From Dromiciops gliroides (lineage: Eukaryota > Chordata > Mammalia > Microbiotheria > Microbiotheriidae): DNA of 64,000 bases. The stretch spans positions 66,281,492 through 66,345,491 of the forward strand of contig NC_057867.1 of NCBI RefSeq assembly GCF_019393635.1, written 5' to 3'. Below, one piece after another: positions 3,091 through 34,884 of this stretch. The notes below the pieces were generated by a model that did no database searches, had not been told where the DNA came from, and saw only the letters and a list, made by a program, of their open reading frames with translations. A program made the position numbers and the translations under genes. Positions within the stretch are counted from its first letter, which is position 1. Each line of letters begins with the position of its first letter.

Positions 3091-3394
3091 TTTCTACCCT
3101 TTACAAAATGGGGCTGTTGACACACTGGACCTAGACATTTCATGGTAAGTTCTGTCCTACCCTCTACCTTCCTCCTCTCCATAGGGTAGACTTTGAGGAG
3201 TTTGGATAATTGAGACTCCCTAGAGTAGGATGAATTGGGCTCACTGTCCCAGTTTCCATCATTTTCTATCATCCCCTAATCTCTCATCCAAATGGGCAGC
3301 GAGTCAGATAGGGAGGTGGGGGTAAGGGGGAGAGGTGACTGTCAACTCCTGGCCATGTCAGCTGGGATTTATATGAGATTCATTTACCTACAAT

Positions 3395-3500
3395 CAATTC
3401 AATTCATTATTTGCTAAGTGCTAACAATACGCAGTGGCTGATGAGGAAAATGAATAAAACATGATGCCTGCCATCAGAGAGCTTACGGACTGGGTGGTAG
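3395..3500 (-). repeat. L2-type 3' end, antisense
   Basis: Diverged antisense L2 tip: ATTTGCTAAGTGCTAACAAT, then GCCTGCCATCAGAGAGCTTA. Confidence 0.55.
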
Positions 3501-3649: not shown

Positions 3650-4390
3650 ATTCATTAAAATAGTATTTATTAAATTTATTTAGGACCTAATTTACATAAG
3701 GTACTGTGCTAGGCAGTGGGGATATAGAGACAAAATGAAAAATGGCATTCAAAGGCAAAACAGAAACAGCACTTGACTTCAAGGAGGAAAGGCTTCCTAT
3801 GAAAGATGGCCCCTGGGTTGCAACTTGAAGGAAGCGAAAGATTCTAAGAGGCAGAGAGAGGACTGAGTGCATTCCAGGCATCAGGGACAGCTTGTGCAAA
3901 GTCACTGAAGCGAGAGATAGAATGCCAAGTTTGGGGAACAGCAAGAAGAACAGTTTGGCTGGAACATGGAGTACATGAATTTCACTAATGGGAAATAAAT
4001 CTGCAAAGGTGGGCTGGAGCCAGAATGTGAAGGATTTTAAATAAGAAACCAAGGAGTTTGTATTTTATCCTAGAGGCAATCAAGAGTCACCAAACCAAGG
4101 GAGTGATGTGGTCAGACTTGTGCTTTAGGAAAAACTATTGTGGCAGCTATGTGGAGGATGGATTAGGGAGGTGACAAACTGACTGTAAGGAGAAAATGTA
4201 GGGGGCTTTTATAATAGTCCAAGCAAAAGATAATGAGGCTCTAAACCAGGGTAGGAGCCATGTGACTGGAGAGAAGGGGATGGACATCTACTTCCAGATG
4301 TCCTGGAAGTACAATTTACAAGAATTGGTCACTGATTAGATATAGGGGGTAAGGGAGTAAAGGGTGTAGTAAAGGGTAACTTCAATGCCA
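3650..4390 (-). repeat. Long L2 relic, antisense
   Basis: It starts at the L2 3' tip (AAGGTACTGTGCTAGGCAGT) and runs into the antisense ORF region. Marks are CATTCCAGGCATCAGGGACA, GAGTGATGTGGTCAGACTTG and ATAATAGTCCAAGCAAAAGA, which are typical of antisense L2. Confidence 0.8.
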
Positions 4391-4497
4391 AACAAAAATC
4401 ATAGTAACTCACATGTCTATAGTGCTTGGATGGTTCATATTACCTCCTCTGCTCTACTGCTCCCTAGTTTAGGTATTATTATCAAATTTGTCTCATA

Positions 4498-4913
4498 AAC
4501 ATAGAAGGAATCTGGCCAGTTGCCTGCTATCTCTATTTTTTAACAGTTGATGTAGCACAGGAATTCTCTGTTCTTTAAATGTTTGATAGAATTCACTTGT
4601 AAATCTATCTGGATCATGAGTTTTTACTCTGGGAGTTTATTTATGTGTTGCTCCATTTCTCTTCCTGAGATTGGGTTATTTCAATTCTTGATTTCCTATC
4701 TGGGTTTTTAAAAAATATTCATCCATTTCATTTAAAGTTTTCATTTCGGTTCACATATAATTGGGTACAGTAGTTTCTGACCACATTATTTCCTTTACCA
4801 CGTGAATTTCCCCTGCTCATTTTTCATCTTGGTAATTTGGTTTTTCTTTCTCTTAAAAAATCAAATTGACTAATGAGTTATCAATTTTATTGACCTTTAA
4901 GAAAACCTTGGTT
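4498..4913 (-). repeat. Old L1 ORF2 relic, antisense
   Basis: AT-rich sequence with TTATCAATTTTATTGACCTT and GAAAACCTTGG, which resembles antisense L1 ORF2 of older families. No frame is open. It is assigned by pattern only. Confidence 0.5.
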
Positions 4914-4996: not shown

Positions 4997-5581
4997 GGGA
5001 GGCAGAGCCAAGATGGTGGAGAGGAAGCAGCAAGCTGCCTGAGCTCTCCTTCTGTTCCCTCAAAACAAACATATTAAATCAAGCCTCTGGACGGATTCTG
5101 AAACTACAGAACCTGCAAAGAGACAGAGAGACACAGTCCTCCAACCAGAGATAATTTAGAAGACTTCAGGAAAAGGTCGGTCAGACTCGGGCAAAAGGGA
5201 GGCCCAGCGCAGGGCAGCAACCCAGCGCCGAGGGGGTTGGGGCAAGTCAGCAGGAGCTGCGGGCCACAGCCGAACAACTGAGGCCCCTGGAACCTGGTTC
5301 AAAAATCTGGTGGCCAAGAAGGACAGTGGAAAAACCTACCTGCACCGGCCGAGAGGGCCACGAATGGGTCAGGCGGGATCAGACGCTGGGGTCCGGCGCC
5401 TGGCTGGCCGAGCACAATCAGACAGGAAGTGCAGGGCGGGGGATCTCCACACACCATAAAGGCCTCAGAGTAAAAACCCGGTCACACAGCACCTATACCC
5501 CTGCACAAGAAGCCCAAAACAGGGACCCTGGTGCCCCCAGAACAGACCTCAACTTAAAGAATAAATAAATAGGCTGCAATA
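4997..5581 (+). promoter_or_regulatory. L1 5' UTR / internal promoter region
   Basis: This GC-rich leader precedes the ORF1 start ATG at 5582. In L1 elements it carries the internal RNA polymerase II promoter; that role is family knowledge, not visible here. It is richer in CpG than the flanking DNA, and no tandem monomers were seen. Confidence 0.6.
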
Positions 5582-5840
5582 ATGAGTAAGAAGCAAAAAA
5601 GAGCCCTCTCCATTGAGAGCTTCTGTATCAATAGGGAAGAAGCCAACACAAACTCAGATGAGGACAATAGCCTCAAATTGCCTACATCTGAAGCCTCACG
5701 AGGGAAGGTGAATTGGTCGCAAGAACAAAAAGCCTTCCTGGAAGAGCTCAAAAAGGATTTTAAAAATCAATTGCAAGAAGTAGAAGAAAAAATGGGGAGA
5801 GAAATGAAAGCAAAACAAGAAAACTATGAAAAAAGAATCA

Positions 5841-5998
5841 GGGGGCGGCTAGGTGGTGCAGTGGATAAAGCACCGGCCCTGGATTCAGGAGTACCTGAGT
5901 TCAAATCCGGCCTCAGACATTTGACACTTAACTAGCTGTGTGAACCTGGGCAAGTCACTTAACCCCCATTGCCCAGCAAAAAAAAAAAAAGAAAGAAA
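5841..5998 (+). mobile_element. tRNA-derived SINE, type B
   Basis: Full copy inserted in L1 ORF1. The target duplication AAAAAAGAATCA is at 5829-5840 and again at about 6000-6011. Its end is CATTGCCCAGC plus an A/G-rich tail, the B type (GATTCAGGAG; TTGACACTT). Confidence 0.93.
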
Positions 5999-6075
5999 GA
6001 AAAAAGAATCAGCAGCTTGGAAAAGGAAGCACATAATTTCACTGAAGAAAACAAAGCCTTAAAAAATTCATTTGG

Positions 6076-6131
6076 GTATGTATGTTAGTCCTTCTTTGAG
6101 TCAATTCTGATGGAAGGACTAACATACATAC
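6076..6131. repeat. 18-bp perfect hairpin at the 5' end of the insert
   Basis: The arm at 6076-6093 (GTATGTATGTTAGTCCTT) is the exact reverse complement of 6114-6131. A 20-base loop separates them. The left arm starts at the first inserted base after the target duplication. Confidence 0.9.
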
Positions 6132-6180
6132 TCAAGTGGGTATAGTAATATATTTTGCCCCGAGGGAGGAGAGGGAGATA

Positions 6181-6195
6181 AGGGGGGGGGGGGGG
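6181..6195 (+). repeat. Poly(G) run
   Basis: A run of about 14 G residues inside the purine-rich L1 spacer. Confidence 0.9.
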
Positions 6196-6921
6196 AGAAG
6201 AGGGGAAGGAGGGAAGGGCAGATTCTGGGAGAGAGTAGTAAAAAGCAAAATACTTCCAAGGAAGGTGAAGATGTTCTGCATAACAGCACAAGTATGAAAT
6301 ATTGAGTTGCTTGATTTCATAGGGAGGGTTGAGGAGAGAGGGAGGAAGAAAATTTGGAACATAGAATTAGCTCAAAGACCTTAAACTCATCAGAGTTGGC
6401 TCATGGAGGGAATAACATTCACACCCAGTTGGGAGGGGTAATCTATTTAACATTATAGGAAAGTATGAGGGGAAGAGGATAAGGAAGGAAGGGTGAAAAA
6501 AAAGGGAGTGCAGAGTAGGGGAGGGGACAGTCAGAAGTAAAATACTTTTGAGGAGGAATAGTTTAAAAGAAGATAGAAAATAGAGTAAATATCATGGGAA
6601 GGGAATAGGATGGAGGGAAATAGTTATGATGACTTTGCTGGGCTAATATGAAGAAAATTCTTTGTCAAGTTTAAGGTACTTTATTTAGATTATGATGAAC
6701 AGGATACTATTAGAAAAACCTGGAAAGACCTACATGAACTGAAGCAGAGTGAAATGCACTGTATACAAAATAACAGCAATAGTGTAAAATGATCTGCTGG
6801 GAAGCAGGTGGTTATTTTCAGCAAGGCAATGGTCCAATATAACCCTGAAGGACTTATGAAAATGGCAACCCATCTACAGAGAAAGAAGTGATAGTATCTG
6901 AAAATAGATGGAAACACATTT

Positions 6922-7089
6922 TTTTTCTTTTCTTTTTTTTTTCTTTCTTTTTTGGTGAGGCAATTGGGGTTGGGTGGCTTGCCCGGGGTCATGTGGCTGG
7001 TGGCTGTTGGGTGTCTGGGGCCGGATTTGGGCTCGGGTCCTCCTGGTTCCAGGGCCAGTGCTCTGTCCGTTGTGCCACCTAGCTGCCCC
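6922..7089 (-). mobile_element. tRNA-derived SINE, antisense
   Basis: It sits inside the L1 3' UTR of the 6076-8108 insert and has a TGGAAACACATTT duplication at 6909-6921 and 7090-7102. The copy is unusually G-rich on this strand (GGTTGGGTGGCTTGCCCGGG) compared with the others. Confidence 0.92.
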
Positions 7090-7366
7090 TGGAAACACAT
7101 TTAAAAAAAAAATTTTTTTCTCTTTGACAATTCCTCAGTCTGAAGTTTTGGGAGTTTTTTGACTGTTTTTTCTCACAATGTGGGAATGTTTTCCGTGACT
7201 ACTCATGTATAATTTATTTTGAAATGCTTGAGTTCTAGTGGGTGGGGGGTGGGAATAGAGGAGGAAGAGAAGTTGGAACAATTTTTTTTAATTGATGTTA
7301 AAATTTGTTTTTACATATATTTTGGAAAATAAAATTCTATTCAAAAAAGAAGAAAGAAAAAGAGGA

Positions 7367-8085
7367 AGGGATTGAGAACAAAAGAAAGGAAAAGGAAAAC
7401 AATTTTAAAGAAGTAGAAATTATTTTGTTCCAAACAGTTATTCCTAACTGAACAATTAAAGAGGCACTTGTAGAAATTTCCACCTTGAAGAATCTTCTCT
7501 GTTCTCAAAGGCATACTAATTTGCTCAATATATGAAATCCAATTATTAAGATAACATATGAGAGCAGATGAATGAATAACACAGTCTTGAATATGTCCTG
7601 TCAGCTCTAGACGTAAATGATTTCAAATGGTTAGTACTTCATTTGATGTTTTAATATCCATCAAAATGCATTCTGAAATTTAAAATTAGTAAATGGGGGA
7701 CAGCTGGGTGGTACAGTGGATAGAGCGCCGGCCCTGGACTGAGGAGGACCTGAATTCGGGTTCGGCCTCAGGCGCTTAACACTTACTAGTTGTGGGGCCC
7801 TGGGCAAGTCACTTAACCCCGGTTGCCTCACAAAAAAATAAAATAAAATAAAATAAAATAAAATAAAACAAAATAAAATAAAATAAGTAAATGAATGTGT
7901 TAATTTTCCTAATGAGAATAATCACAATTCCAAATTTTTCCTTCTGTGTTTTCTACAAAATTGATGTTACTAGCTCATTTTTCCCTTTCTTCCTTCTTCC
8001 AGTTTTCCCAGAATACCATCTTATGTTACAATAACAATGGTACCAGAGGAGATAGATTTTTCTAATAAATAACCTTTTGAATATT
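7367..8085 (+). other. Probable transduced flank of a source L1
   Basis: About 720 bases without L1 similarity lie between an L1 3' end and a second poly(A) signal (AATAAA, 8064), inside the same target duplication as the L1. A SINE interrupts it. No coding frame stands out. Confidence 0.65.
7696..7885 (+). mobile_element. tRNA-derived SINE, type A, with (AAAAT)n tail
   Basis: A-type copy ending GTTGCCTCAC and followed by about 10 AAAAT units (about 7838-7885). A short AGTAAATG duplication lies at 7688-7695 and 7886-7893. Confidence 0.9.
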
Positions 8086-9961
8086 AAAAATAAAAAAATA
8101 AAAAATAAAAAAAATTCATTTGGCCAAATGGAAAAAAGGTGCATAATCTCACTGAAGAAAACAATACCTTAAAAAATTCACTTGACCAAATGGAAAAAAA
8201 GGTGCATAATCTCACTGAAGAAAACAATGCCTTAAAAATTAAAGTGGGATAGTTGGAAGATAAGGAATCCATGAGGAAGATAAGGAATCCATTCAGGAAT
8301 CAGTCAAGCAGAATTAAAAAAATGAAAAAAATAGAAGAAAATGTGAAATACCTCATTGGAAAGACAACTGATCTGGAAAACAGATCGAGGAGAGACAATT
8401 TGAGAATCATTGGACTGCCTGAAAGCCATGACCAGAAAAAGAATCTAGACACCATATTCCAGGAAATTATTAAGGAGAACTGCCCTGATATCATAGAATC
8501 AGAGGATAAAATCATCATTGAAAGAATCCACCAATCACCTCCTAAAAGAGACCCCAAAAGGAAAACTCCAAGGAATATTGTAGCCAAATTCCAGAATTAT
8601 CAGGTGAAGGAGAAAATACTCCAAGCAGCCAGAAAGAAGCAATTTAAATATCATGGAGCCACAGTCAGGATTGCTCAGGACCTGGCAGCTTCAACATTAA
8701 AGGACCGCAAGGCTTGGAATATGCTATTCCGGAAGGCAAAGGAGCTTGGATTGCAGCCGAGAATCTATTACCCAGCAAAAATGTGCATTTTCTTTCAGGG
8801 GAAAAGATGGACATTTAATGACATTGGGGACTTTCAATCTTTCCTGGTGAAAAGACCAGAACTGAATAGAAAATTCGATCTCAACATACAAGACTCAAGA
8901 GAAGTTTAAAAAGGTAAACAGAGGGGGAAAAAAAGGTTACCCTATTAGGTTAAACTGTTTATATCCCTACACAGGAAGATAATACTCATAACTCTGTGGT
9001 AAAATATGAAAGTTTTTAACAGTCGGTTAGGATAACTGAAAGACGCCAGTTTTTCAAGGACCACCCTTTTGGGGAGGAGATGAACAGTCCGCCTGCTGCG
9101 CATGTCAGACTGCCTGCCGGGTTTTTTGACTTCCGGGGTGGAGAGAACGAGAGGAGGCCTTTTGCCTGCTTGGTGGGACTCCTGACGGCGAGGCACAGAC
9201 TCTCTCTCCAAAGGTGGCCTTTATCGGTTTGGTGAGTTTTTATAAGGAATATAGACTAAGCTTAGACTTAAGACGATTTGTATTGTGTTTCTACTTTCCT
9301 ATCCTTCTAATCAACATCACCTTGTGACTATCATAACTATAAATAAAAAGGTCTATCTAGAAAACCAAAAGCTGCTTCCATTTACTAGTTTGGGAGATAA
9401 ATTAAGGGAAAGGTTAAGTAGGGGAGATTTATGATCTAATATCCAATTTTAAATCTCACAACTCTTAAGAACTGTAAATGTATTTGGGCAGAGAGAAGGA
9501 CTTTACACAGAGGGTATAAATATAAATTGTCATTGATGTGATGATAGAAAAGAATTAAGGGGTTAAAAAGGGAGTCTAGGGGAGAAGAGGAAAGGGGAGG
9601 TGGAATGGGATGAATTATATCATATGAAGAGGTGGAAAAAAACCTATTACAATAGAGGGAAAGAAAGGAGGGGGGAACATTGTTTCAACCCTATTCTCAT
9701 TAGATTTGACTCAAAGAGGGAATAACATATACATTCATTGGGATAAAGAAACTTAACTCATTCTTTAGGGAAACAAAAGGGGAAGGAAAAGGGGGGGACT
9801 GATAGAAGGGAGGACAAAAGCAAGGGAGAAAAGGGTAAAGAAAAGAGAGGGGGGTGATAAAAAGGGAGGGCAGATCGGGGGAGGCAGGGGTAAGAAGTAA
9901 AACGTCAGTGAGGAGGAATAGGGTGAAAGAAGGGGGGGAAAGTACAAAGGGGGTAAATAGA

Positions 9962-12900
9962 ATGGAGGGGAATAGACAGTCAGTAATAATAACTGTGAAT
10001 GTGAATGGGATGAACTCTGCTATAAAACGGAAGCGAATTGCAGAGTGGATTAAAAACCAGAACCCTACAATATGCTGTTTACAAGAAACACATTTGAAGC
10101 AGAGAGATACACACAGAGTAAAGGTAAAAGGCTGGAGCAGAATATATTATGCCTCAGCTAAAGTAAAAAAGGCAGGGGTAGCAATCCTTATCTCAGACAA
10201 AGTGCAGGCAAAAATAGATCTCATTAAAAGAGATAAGGAAGGAAATTACATCTTACTTAAAGGTACTATAGATAATGAAGTAATATCAATATTAAATACG
10301 TATGCGCCAAGTGGTATAGCATCCAAGTTCTTAGAGGAGAAGTTAAATGAGTTACAAGAGGAATTAGACAGTAATACTATACTAGTGGGGGATCTGAATC
10401 TCCCCCTCTCAGAATTAGATAAATCTAGCCAAAAAATAAATGAGAAAGAAGTGAAAGAGGTGAATAGATTACTAGAAAAGTTAGACATGATAGATGTCTG
10501 GAGAAAATTGAATGGGGATAGAAAGGAATATACCTTTTTCTCAGCAGTAAACAGCACATTTTCAAAAATTGACCATGTATTAGGGCACAAAAACATCAGA
10601 GTCAAATGTAGAAAGGCAGAAATAGTAAATGCATCCTTCTCAGATCATGATGCAATAAAAATTACATGTAAGAAAGAGCCAGGGAAAAGTAGAATGAAAA
10701 TCAATTGGAAACTAAATAATTTCATTCTAAAGAATGAATGGGCCAAACAAGAAATCATAGAAACAATCAATAATTTTATCCAAGAGAATGACAATAATGA
10801 GACAACATACCAAAATCTATGGGATGCAGCCAAAGCAGTGCTTAGGGGAAAATTTATAGCTTTAAATGCTTACATGAATAAAAAAGAGAAAGAGGAGATT
10901 AATGAACTGGGCATGCAACTTAAAAAGCTAGAAAAAGAACAAATTAGAAATCCCCAATTAGACACTAAATTAGAGATCCTGAAAATTAAAGGAGAAATTG
11001 ATAAGATTGAAAGCAAAAAAACTATAGAATTAATCAATAAAACTAAGAGCTGGTTTTATGAAAAAACCAATAAAATAGATAAAATATTGGTTAATTTGAT
11101 TAAAAAAAAGAAAGAAGAAAACCAAATTACCAGTATCAAAAACGAAAAGGGTAATGTTACCACCAATGAAGTGGAAATTAAATCAATAATTAGGAATTAT
11201 TTTGCCCAACTGTATGCCAATAAATTTGACAATCTAAATGAAATGGGTGAATATTTACAAAAATACAAACTGCCCAGGTTAACGGAAGAAGAAATAAAAT
11301 CCTTAAATAAACCCATATTAGAAAAAGAAATTGAACAAGCCATTAATGAACTCCCTAAGAAAAAGTCCCCAGGGCCAGATGGGTTTACGGGTGAATTTTA
11401 CCAAACATTTAAAGAACAATTAATTCCAATATTATACAAATTATTTGGAAAAATAGGTGAAGAAGGAGTTCTACCAAATTCGTTTTATGACACAAATATG
11501 GTGGTGATACCAAAACCAGGCAAAGCAAAAACAGAGAAAGAAAATTATAAACCAATTTCCCTAATGAATATTGATGCTAAAATCTTAAATAAGATATTAG
11601 CAAGGAGATTACAGCAAGTGATCACCAGGATAATACACTATGACCAGGTGGGATTTATACCAGGAATTCAGGGCTGGTTCAACATTAGAAAAACTATTAA
11701 CATAATCAACCATATCAATAAGAAAACCAACCAAAATCATATGATTATCTCAATAGATGCAGAGAAAGCTTTTGACAAAGTACAACACCCATTCCTAATA
11801 AAAACACTAGAGAGTTTAGGAATAGGTGGAGCTTTCCTTAGAATAATAAACAGTATCTACCTAAAGCCATCAGCAAGTATTATATGCAATGGAGATAAAT
11901 TAGAGGCCTTCCCAATAAGATCAGGGGTGAAACAGGGATGTCCATTATCACCCCTATTATTTAATATTGTCCTAGAAATGTTAGCTTTAGCAATCAGAGA
12001 AGAGAAAGGAATTAAAGGAATTAGAATAGGCAAGGAGGAAACAAAACTATCACTCTTTGCAGATGATATGATGGTATACTTAAAGAATCCTAGAGAATCA
12101 ACTCAAAAATTACTTGAAACAATTAACAACCTTAGCAAAGTAGCAGGATATAAAATAAATCCACATAAATCATCAGCATTTCTATACATGACCAACAAAG
12201 TCCAGCAGCAAGAGATAGAAAGAGAAATTCCATTTAAAGTAACGGTAGATAATATAAAATACTTGGGAGTCTACTTGCCAAGACAAACCCAGGAACTCTA
12301 TGAACACAACTACCAAACACTCTTCACACAAATCAAATCAGATCTAAATAATTGGAAAGATATCAATTGCTCATGGATAGGCAGAGCTAATATAGTCAAA
12401 ATGACAATACTGCCTAAATTAATTTACTTATTCAGTGCCATACCAATCAGACTACCTAAAAATTATTTTATACAGCTAGAAAAAATAATAACAAAATTCA
12501 TCTGGAAAAACAAAAAATCAAGAATATCCAGGGAAATAATGAAAAAAAATTCACAAGAAGGTGGGATAGCGGTACCAAACCTGGAGCTTTACTATAAAGC
12601 GGCAGTCATCAAAACTATCTGGTACTGGCTAAAAAGTAGAGTGGTAGATCAATGGAATAGGCTAAGCTCAGGAAATGCAGTAGTAAATGACACTAGTAAT
12701 GTAGTGTTTGATAAACCCAAAGACTCCAGCTTCTGGGGTAGAAACTCAGTATTTGACAAAAACTTCTGGGAAAACTGGAAGATAGTATGGCAGAAATTAG
12801 GCATAGACCAACATCTTACACCTTATACTAAAATAAGGTCAAAATGGATACACGATTTAGACATAAGAGGTGATACCATAGGTAAATTAGGAGAGAAAGG

Positions 12901-13778
12901 ACCTTTGGAAAGGAAAACAGTTTTTGACCAAACAAGAGATAGAGTATATTATAAAATGCAAAGTGGATGATTTTGATTATATTAAATTAAAAAATTTCTG
13001 TACAAACAGAAGCAATGCATCCAAAATTAGAAGGGAGGCAGAAAGCTGGGAAACAATTTTTGAGGCCAGTACTTCTGATAAAGGCCTTATCTCTAAAATA
13101 TATAGGGAACTAAATCAAATTTATAAGAATCCAAGTCATTCCCCAATTGAGAAATGGTCAAAGGATATGAACAGGCAGTTTTCTGATGAAGAAACCAAAG
13201 CTATCTATTCCCATATGAAAAAATGCTCTAAATCTCTAATGATTAGAGAGATGCAAATTAAAACAACTCTGAGGTACCACCTGACACCTATCAGATTGGC
13301 TAAAATGACAAAAAAGGAAAATAATAAATGTTGGAGAAGCTGTGGGAAAATTAGAACACTAATTCATTGTTGGTGGAGCTGTGAACTGATCCAGCCATTC
13401 TGGAGAGCAATTTGGAATTATGCCCAAAGGGCGCTAAAACTGTGCATACCCTTTGACTCAGCAATACCACTTTTAGGTCTTTTTCCCAAAGAAATCATGG
13501 AAGGGGGAGCAGGACCCACATGTACAAAAATATTTATAGCTGCTCTTTTTGTTGTAGCAAGGAATTGGAAGTTGAGGGGGTGCCCATCAATTGGGGAATG
13601 GCTGGACAAGCTGTGGTATATGAATACGATGGAATACTATTGTGCTGTAAGAAATGATGAGCAGGAGGAGTTCAGAGAAACCTGGAGTGTCTTGCGTGAG
13701 CTGATGATGAGTGAGATGAGCAGAACCAGAAGAACATTGTACACAGTATCATCAACATTGAGTGTTGACCTACTGTGA
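9962..13778 (+). pseudogene. L1 ORF2 (endonuclease and reverse transcriptase), one frameshift
   Basis: ORF2 nicks target DNA and copies RNA into it. The AP-type endonuclease (about residues 1-235) keeps QETH with E42, GDLN with D144 and N146, IDH with D204, and SDH with D228/H229. The reverse transcriptase shows SPGPDGF (about 11375), DAEKAFD (about 11757) and FADD at residues 699-702. The frame is open from 9962 to 12970. It shifts by one base near 12925-12955 and continues to 13778, where the Cys/His region ([16 protein letters not shown]) and C-terminus lie. GDLN in place of the usual GDFN is a visible change. One base keeps this from a full-length reading frame of about 1,270 codons. Confidence 0.93.
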
Positions 13779-14234
13779 TGGACTATATTCTTCTCACCAA
13801 TGCAATGGTACAGAAGAGTTCCAGGGAACTCGTGATAGAAGAGGATCTCCAAATCCAAGAAAAAAAAAAAAGAACTGTGGAGTATAGATACTGATTGAAC
13901 CATACTATTTCTTTTGTTTTGGGTGCTGTTGTTTTTTTTTCTATTTTGAGGTTTTGCATTACTGCTCTGATTTTTTCCTCTTATAACAGGATTAATGCAG
14001 AAATAGGATTAATGTTATTATGGATATATATGTGTGTATATATATACATCTATATGTGTATGTATGTAGATGTATAGATATAACTTATATCAGATTGCCT
14101 GCTGTCTAGGGGAGGGGGGGAGGGAGGGGAGGGAGAAAGATCTGAGGTTGTAGAGCTTGTATGGACAGGGGTTGGGAGCTATCTTTACATGTGGTGGAGA
14201 AAATGAAATACCTTATATGTAAAAAAAAAAAAAA
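13779..14234 (+). other. L1 3' UTR and A tail
   Basis: After the ORF2 stop come a T-rich stretch, a TA/TG dinucleotide block (about 14020-14075), a G-rich tract (GGGGAGGGGGGGAGGGAGGG) common in L1 3' UTRs, and the A run at 14221-14234. Confidence 0.85.
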
Positions 14235-20440: not shown

Positions 20441-20616
20441 TGAGTAAAGCACTTTGTACATTATAAAGGTCTATAGAAATATGGGTTTTAAAAAATTAAA
20501 ATTTTTATTCTTATCTTTTTTATGTCACCTCCATTTCCAAATATGTCTCTTCCCTCTGCCCTACCCAGTAAACCACCCCCTTGATAACAATACTAATTTA
20601 AAAAGATGGGGAGGGA

Positions 20617-20758
20617 GGGGCAGCTAGGTGGCACAGTGGATAGAGCACCGGCCCTGGAGTCAGGAGTTCCTGAGTTCAAATCCGGCCTCAGACACTTAAC
20701 ACTTGCTAGCTGTGTGACCCTGGGCAAGTCACTTAACCCCAATTGCCTCACTAAAAAA
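20617..20758 (+). mobile_element. tRNA-derived SINE, type A
   Basis: Ends CCCCAATTGCCTCAC plus A run. AAAAAGATGGGGAGGG flanks it at 20600 and about 20759. A second SINE follows head-to-tail. Confidence 0.92.
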
Positions 20759-20772
20759 AAAAAGATGGGGAG

Positions 20773-20915
20773 GGGCAGCTAGGTAGCGCAGTGGATAAAG
20801 TACTGGCCCTGGATTCAAGAGGACCTGAGTTCAAATCCAGTCTCAGACACTTGACACTTACTAGCTGTGTGACCTGGGGCAAGTCACTTAACCCTCATTG
20901 CCCCACAAAAAAGAG
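20773..20915 (+). mobile_element. tRNA-derived SINE, type B
   Basis: Ends CCTCATTGCCCCAC. It sits directly behind the A-type copy, in the duplicated AAAAAGATGGGGAGG site. Confidence 0.92.
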
Positions 20916-33760: not shown

Positions 33761-34190
33761 AGGATAGGGCTTTAGAATTGGAACTGTGCAAGTGGGTTTG
33801 CTTTGGATCACAGTGGTATTGAGGGAAATCTGGGGAGACACCATTGGAAACCATGAGCAGGTCCTCCCACGCTCCTCTTCCATAAAATGAAGGGGTCAAA
33901 CTGCATGATCTCAAGGGCTCTTCTACCTCTAGACCCTTGAAGCTATCCAAGTCAGTCAAACTATCCATGGCTGGGTATGACAGCCCACTACTGGCACAAT
34001 TGGGGAGGCAGTGACTGCTGCTACATTTTAGCGCTGGTGGATCTGGGCTTTACAGTGAACATGAAACTGAGTGTTTGGAAGAGCTAGAGAACCAGATAGC
34101 CTGGTAAGACTTCTTACTGTACAACCATGTAACTCTGGTTTTCCCTGGGTACAGAGGTGTGCTTGTAAGTATTTAACAACCAGCTCTTTT

Positions 34191-34773
34191 TAAAAAGCAT
34201 GTTACATTTTAGGCAGTATTGTCATTTTTACTATATTAGCTCTGCCTATCCATGAGCAATTGATATCTTTCCAATTATTTAGATCTGATTTGATTTGTGT
34301 GAAGAGTGTTTGGTAGTTGTGTTCATAGAGTTCCTGGGTTTGTCTTGGCAAGTAGACTCCCAGGTATTTTATATTACCTACCGTTACTTTAAATGGAATT
34401 TCTCTTTCTATCTCTTGCTGCTGGACTTTGTTGGTCATGTATAGAAATGCTGATGATTTATGTGGATTTATTTTATATCCTGCTACTTTGCTAAAGTTGT
34501 TAATTGTTTCAAGTAATTTTTGACTTGATTCTCGAGGATTCCTTAAGTATACCATCATATCATCTGCAAAGAGTGATAGTTTTGTTTCCTCCTTGCCTAT
34601 TCTAATTCCTTTAATTCCTTTCTCTTCTCTGATTGCTAAAGCTAACATTTCTAGAACAATATTAAATAATAGGGGTGATAATGGACATCCCTGTTTCACC
34701 CCTGATCTTATTGGGAAGGCCTCTAATTTATCTCCATTGAATATAATACTTGTAAAAAGCATGTTACATTTTA
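34191..34773 (-). mobile_element. Internal L1 ORF2 piece with target duplication and no poly(A)
   Basis: The body is 34212-34752, 541 bases. It equals positions 11874-12414 of the large L1 in reverse complement, with equal length and few changes. The reading frame stays open through [11 protein letters not shown] and FADDMMVYL; about five residues differ from the large L1. It is flanked by an exact 21-bp duplication (34191-34211 and 34753-34773). No A tail, 3' UTR or ORF2 ends are present. The pre-insertion site reads TTTT/AAAA on the sense strand of the insert, the L1 endonuclease pattern. L1 bases TAAA at the 3' junction overlap the target. Confidence 0.92.
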
Positions 34774-34884
34774 AAATTTAATCTTCATTATTAATATTTT
34801 CTCCATCACTTCTGAGGTATAAATGTTTACCCTGAAAATTTAACAATCAGCTCTCAAGAGCCTGTCCAGCTGGCTCCAGAACCC

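Follow-up and report, generated by a model that had tools for sequence, protein, structure and literature searches.

An internal L1 ORF2 piece with an exact target duplication and no poly(A) tail: a possible case of priming inside the L1 RNA

How does a segment from the middle of an L1 element come to lie between perfect copies of a target sequence when it carries neither the L1 3' end nor a tail? The locus that raises this question lies in a window of 64,000 nucleotides (the whole stretch of DNA analysed), on an 85-Mb contig of the 3.3-Gb assembly of 17 contigs that was searched. The SINEs of the window resemble marsupial MAR1-type SINEs, and we take the host to be a non-primate. The locus is made up as follows.

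34152 to 34882, no strand: old dispersed repeat interrupted by the piece (34152-34211 and 34774-34882), recognized by the joined-flank search
34186 to 34197, minus strand: context of the second-strand cut, CTTTTTA/AAAAG, by direct reading
34191 to 34211, no strand: target site duplication, copy on the L1 3' side, exact 21-mer TAAAAAGCATGTTACATTTTA
34212 to 34752, minus strand: internal L1 ORF2 fragment (reverse transcriptase region), 541 bp, colinear with 11874-12414
34753 to 34773, no strand: target site duplication, copy on the L1 5' side, exact 21-mer TAAAAAGCATGTTACATTTTA
34767 to 34777, plus strand: context of the first nick, TTTT/AAAA, with the plus strand as primer, by direct reading

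The frame is open across the full 541 bases of the piece. Compared with nucleotides 11874-12414 of the large L1 in the same window, the piece shows nine substitutions and no indels, and both its coordinates and the alignment agree with the length and the lack of indels given in an earlier note on this DNA; blastn, with the shared TAAA counted in, returns 536 identities of 545. Between the two exact 21-mers lies the L1 segment alone. Read from 34212 to 34752, it lacks both the poly(A) tail and the 3' end of L1. The target accounts for every one of the four As at the L1 3' junction, which bears out the earlier statement that there is no poly(A). The piece therefore does not have the L1 3' end and poly(A) tail of a classical 5'-truncated L1. 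Scans of the whole window against Rfam (gathering threshold) and for tRNAs gave no matches.

Chance cannot reasonably account for an exact repeat of 21 bases on both sides of an insert. The repeat was found at 34191-34211 and 34753-34773 as previously described, with one refinement: since L1 and target have TTTA (TAAA in the L1 sense orientation) in common, the true duplication measures 17-21 bp, and 20 bp if the nick falls at the canonical TTTT/AAAA. At the first nick, direct reading shows CATTTTAAAAT spanning the end of the 21-mer and the start of the flank, so that the context, CATTTT/AAAATTT, is of the L1 endonuclease type and contains the TTTT/AAAA target as claimed. If one places the break at the 21-bp boundary, shifted by one base from the TTTT/AAAA nick, the target reads TT/TAAAATG and agrees in 8 of 9 letters with TT/WAAAAWW, the consensus that passages of PMC5322556 give for the targets of tailless retropseudogenes.

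Both ends of the 21-mer resemble TTTT(A)/AAAA, so two L1 endonuclease cuts are possible. The sequence CTTTTTA/AAAAG at the second-strand cut would also suit a staggered double-strand break whose repair captured a fragment of L1 cDNA, and the discussion in PMC5402677 allows internal-priming copies at staggered breaks. However, the canonical first nick and the simple junctions make a separate repair unnecessary, filler bases were not seen at the junctions, and we consider such a repair quite improbable.

For the state of the target without the insert, we built a query from the two flanks with a single 21-mer between them and ran it against the genome, scoring 40 of 968 candidates. The query recovered its own locus as two halves together with 45 non-self rows of 72-91% identity from these 40 scored candidates; the matches are confined to positions 184-381 of the query, and 31 of the 45 rows cross the joint. 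Such matches genome-wide place the piece in an old dispersed repeat. We retrieved 20 paralogous loci, nearly all from joint-crossing rows. All 20 align through the joint and lack an L1 insert; many show small gaps. The earlier note had named two findings that would speak against its reading, a rearrangement of a longer L1 and an empty site in which the 21-mer is not single-copy. When one copy was tested against two or none, one gave the best score in 18 of the 20 paralogues, in agreement with a single-copy target. In the other two, two copies outscore one (L040, 67 versus 63; L047, 51 versus 46), and for L047 zero copies also beat one copy by a single point; both loci carry extra bases in the variable part around the joint. 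Being paralogous rather than orthologous, these empty sites reveal how the repeat is laid out, not the allele before insertion. An origin at the DNA level, with a genomic L1 duplicated or rearranged, for which the existence of many near-identical L1 copies is the one point to be cited, is disfavoured by the isolation of the L1 segment between exact 21-mers, by paralogues whose flanks are joined without an insert and by a junction pattern found once, and seems to us hardly credible. Nick context, duplication and paralogous empty sites together support the L1 endonuclease-type insertion proposed earlier.

To place the piece among its relatives, we took the best 40 of 1867 first-look candidates, one of which is the piece itself, and retrieved and compared 25 distinct loci from the 39 non-self matches listed. 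In all 25, the sequence reads on as L1 past both breakpoints, so that the tailless 3' end of the piece lies inside the element. The piece differs from each of these 25 at one to three positions (one copy has a 1-base gap), a closeness that is partly selection since the copies compared are the best-scoring ones. The nearest among them, L002/L009 and L003/L010, differ from it solely at the position matching 11886; with one difference from the two nearest copies, the piece has one private change. The C at 12263 is common to 8 of the 25. By these comparisons the sublineage of the piece is nearer to the compared copies than to the large L1. The large L1, implied as parent in the earlier note, is not the nearest copy (nine differences versus one in 541), and with nine differences against one to three for the 25 distinct copies it is out as parent. 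If substitutions are assumed to arise at 1.5-3e-9 per site per year, one change in 541 puts the age at roughly 0.6-1.2 million years, within the broad limits of 0.02-6.9 million years. The suggestion that the piece is young is upheld by its closeness to the nearest two copies, from which a single private substitution in 541 sets it apart.

The junctions allow us to address where the cDNA began. At the 3' breakpoint L1 reads CTGCC/TAAATTAAT and the target TAAAATGTAAC, with TAAA in both, as the earlier note had remarked; 3+1 bases are common to L1 and target and none is untemplated. No base is shared at the 5' junction (L1 ...CAG/CAAG; the duplication ends ...CTTTTTA). On balance, we think it probable that an L1 endonuclease nick was followed by internal priming in ORF2, giving a tailless retrocopy. 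L1 endonuclease would nick the plus strand at CATTTT/AAAATTT, and the TTT-3' end would pair with the AAA of ...CUGCCUAAAUUAAU... in ORF2 of the L1 RNA. Extension of the cDNA would proceed for 541 nt and then stop, leaving a 5' truncation, while the second strand would be cut 17-21 bp away and the ends filled to form the duplication. That the template ran past the priming point and that pairing chose this point are, like all the enzymatic steps, what we infer. The exact duplication, the colinear piece, the canonical nick and the simple 3' junction support internal priming. Against it stand the mere three to four paired bases, despite longer A runs in the same RNA, and the two of 20 paralogues in which a one-copy target is not best.

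How much the pairing can be asked to explain was examined by comparison with the rest of the element. CCUAAAUU would give a TTTT primer three paired bases, or four if the nick is TTTTA/AAA. At least three bases pairable with the primer occur at 343 of 4600 positions of the same L1 stretch, and a total overlap of at least four bases arises at 238 of 4600 random breakpoints (5.2%). Over 10 nt the identity at the breakpoint is 4/10, a value reached at 1946 of 4600 positions and so no better than chance. Local fold prediction gives the breakpoint site an unpaired probability of 0.161, the median over all 5-mers, and 54 of the 68 TAAA sites, the breakpoint included, are predicted to be equally or more open. 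An open loop at the breakpoint is thus unsupported, the fold prediction leaning against a single-stranded region. The L1 RNA has many runs of A5-A10 elsewhere, and the A run GUAAAAAUG ends 13 nt before the breakpoint. The earlier proposal of priming at a "short A stretch" holds to the extent that three As are there; with weak pairing that 343 of 4600 positions could match, an overlap reached at 5.2% of random breakpoints and a site not predicted to be unusually single-stranded, the stretch is only a hint.

With only three As and a four-base overlap that about 5% of random breakpoints would match, a broken RNA end becomes a serious rival. The target-primed reaction would be the same, its template a fragment of L1 RNA terminating at, or slightly beyond, ...CUGCC(UAAA), and the nicked target would have primed on that terminus almost or entirely without pairing. 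This would account for the minimal pairing (10-nt identity of 4/10, matched at 1946 of 4600 positions) and for the longer A runs left unused. However, the four-base overlap mildly favours pairing (5.2% by chance), and the sections of Noll et al. 2015 (PMC5322556) on tailless 5S and U2 copies present no convincing truncated source RNAs behind them; we regard the broken end as unlikely, though it deserves weight. Whether the RNA was whole or broken, we are fairly confident that the cDNA started inside L1 sequence.

Ordinary insertions of the same family provide a comparison. Among 20 young L1 loci retrieved with wide flanks from the same genome, 17 have flanking repeats of 12-19 bp with A-rich starts, and the remaining three (L015, L021, L026) have no flanking repeat above 7. 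L028 makes a direct contrast with the piece: its 5' truncation lies 22 nt upstream of the 5' end of the piece, but it ends normally on the 3' side, carries an A-rich tail and is flanked by a 15-bp duplication. These copies bear on the idea that a tailed, 5'-truncated L1 was inserted first and later lost everything between the TAAA of ORF2 and the AAAA where tail and duplication meet. The TAAA microhomology at the junction would suit such a deletion, and an internal deletion of 249 bp is known in another L1 copy, L064. On the other hand, the loss must end exactly at the boundary of tail and target, sparing the four As of the target while taking the whole tail; the young L1s retrieved retain their A-rich 3' ends; and a second event would be needed in a short time, since one private substitution in 541 leaves little time for later remodelling. 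Because exact removal of a whole tail is required in a copy with a single private substitution, we judge later deletion improbable, and internal priming at the time of insertion remains our preferred account.

The 3' junction pattern of the piece has a single occurrence genome-wide; the piece is therefore not an amplified rearranged fragment, and an amplified or repeated tailless piece is ruled out. Analogous patterns at three strong A-run sites gave 2, 3 and 2 matches, seven in total, in scans that took exact matches only at few sites and so give no frequency estimate. Five of the seven are small changes within continuing L1, and one, L061, does not match the L1 reference. The last, L056, is a true L1/non-L1 junction: an internal L1 piece (1174-1519; reference 3097-3443, 89% identical) ends at GATTAAAA against non-L1 sequence. 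It has no tail, and no duplication of more than 7 bases was found within the flanking stretches compared, making it a candidate for an older tailless or rearranged piece. A second tailless piece with a clear duplication was thus not found at the three A-run sites, a result that counts against internal priming. A non-A control site gave three matches, all indels within L1; in one of them, L064, the 249-bp internal deletion (around position 1519) runs from reference 4292 to 4540 and is joined CCCC/AGCAGC.

Several published systems resemble the piece in part. Insertions of L1 and Alu by internal priming are attributed to Srikanta et al. 2009 in the relevant passages of PMC5402677 and PMC4859970; the former applies internal priming to a tailless Alu with duplications and holds that the L1 endonuclease nick is not always required for such insertions. 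Like them, the piece is tailless and has a duplication, an L1-type nick and a probable cDNA start upstream of the tail, but its internal site is just UAAA and not A-rich, and its host appears not to be a primate. Noll et al. 2015 (PMC5322556) describe, in the sections pertinent here, tailless retropseudogenes that include 5'/3'-truncated tailless L1 forms, of which relaxed screening of the human genome gave 5,593 with duplications (data unpublished there). The piece, 3'-truncated, tailless and duplication-flanked, with 8 of 9 letters of their target consensus, belongs to this published class. The cases treated in detail there derive from small RNAs cut short at specific sites within single-stranded regions, whereas the junction of the piece occurs once in the genome and its breakpoint is not predicted to be open. 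The same paper mentions recent L1 activity in marsupials, and it was the only one found to bear on internal priming of marsupial LINE-1, which is no proof of absence elsewhere in print. Endonuclease-independent L1 insertions (Morrish 2002 and Sen 2007, as referenced in a passage of PMC4859970) are compared with tailless tRNA copies for their 3' microhomologies in part of PMC2912911.

The piece resembles the endonuclease-independent insertions in being internal and in the microhomology at its 3' junction. Such insertions usually come without duplications and L1 nick sites; the piece has both and falls outside that class.

Leaving the priming step aside, the event is real, young and clean. The piece is a clean, very young natural L1 copy whose cDNA appears to have started inside L1, apparently outside primates, and it offers a defined junction, a source sublineage defined by sequence and paralogous empty sites. 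It is an illustration that insertion can truncate the element on the 3' side as well as on the 5' side, and it leaves the accepted picture of L1 copying unchanged. We give little credence to the broader idea that the L1 reverse transcriptase here begins readily from broken L1 RNA or from internal sites, given as few as three paired bases, young tailless L1 pieces with full duplications being common in the lineage beyond A-rich sites.

The element that served for comparison has features of its own.

4997 to 14233, plus strand: large L1 with nested insertions, nine differences from the piece, a comparison copy and not its nearest relative

It is bounded by short near-identical flanks, AATTTGTGTTCC and AATTGTGTTCC. 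A SINE lies at about 5840-6005 inside its ORF1, which is also interrupted by some 2 kb of sequence (6075-8105) flanked by copies of AAAAAATTCATTTG. The young L1 copies L009-L028 contain a 63-bp (21-aa) tandem unit of variable number, probably part of the ORF1 coiled coil, at about 820-1100 of L1 (8109-8238 in the window). Unit number was measured in 18 of these 20 copies: 13 are like L020, four (L016, L017, L021, L024) have about one unit fewer, and L022 has about two more. Similar variation in ORF1 length is a feature of rodent L1s. Elsewhere in the window, two SINE-like copies stand in tandem at 20613-20912, with a period of 155 bp and 86% matches.
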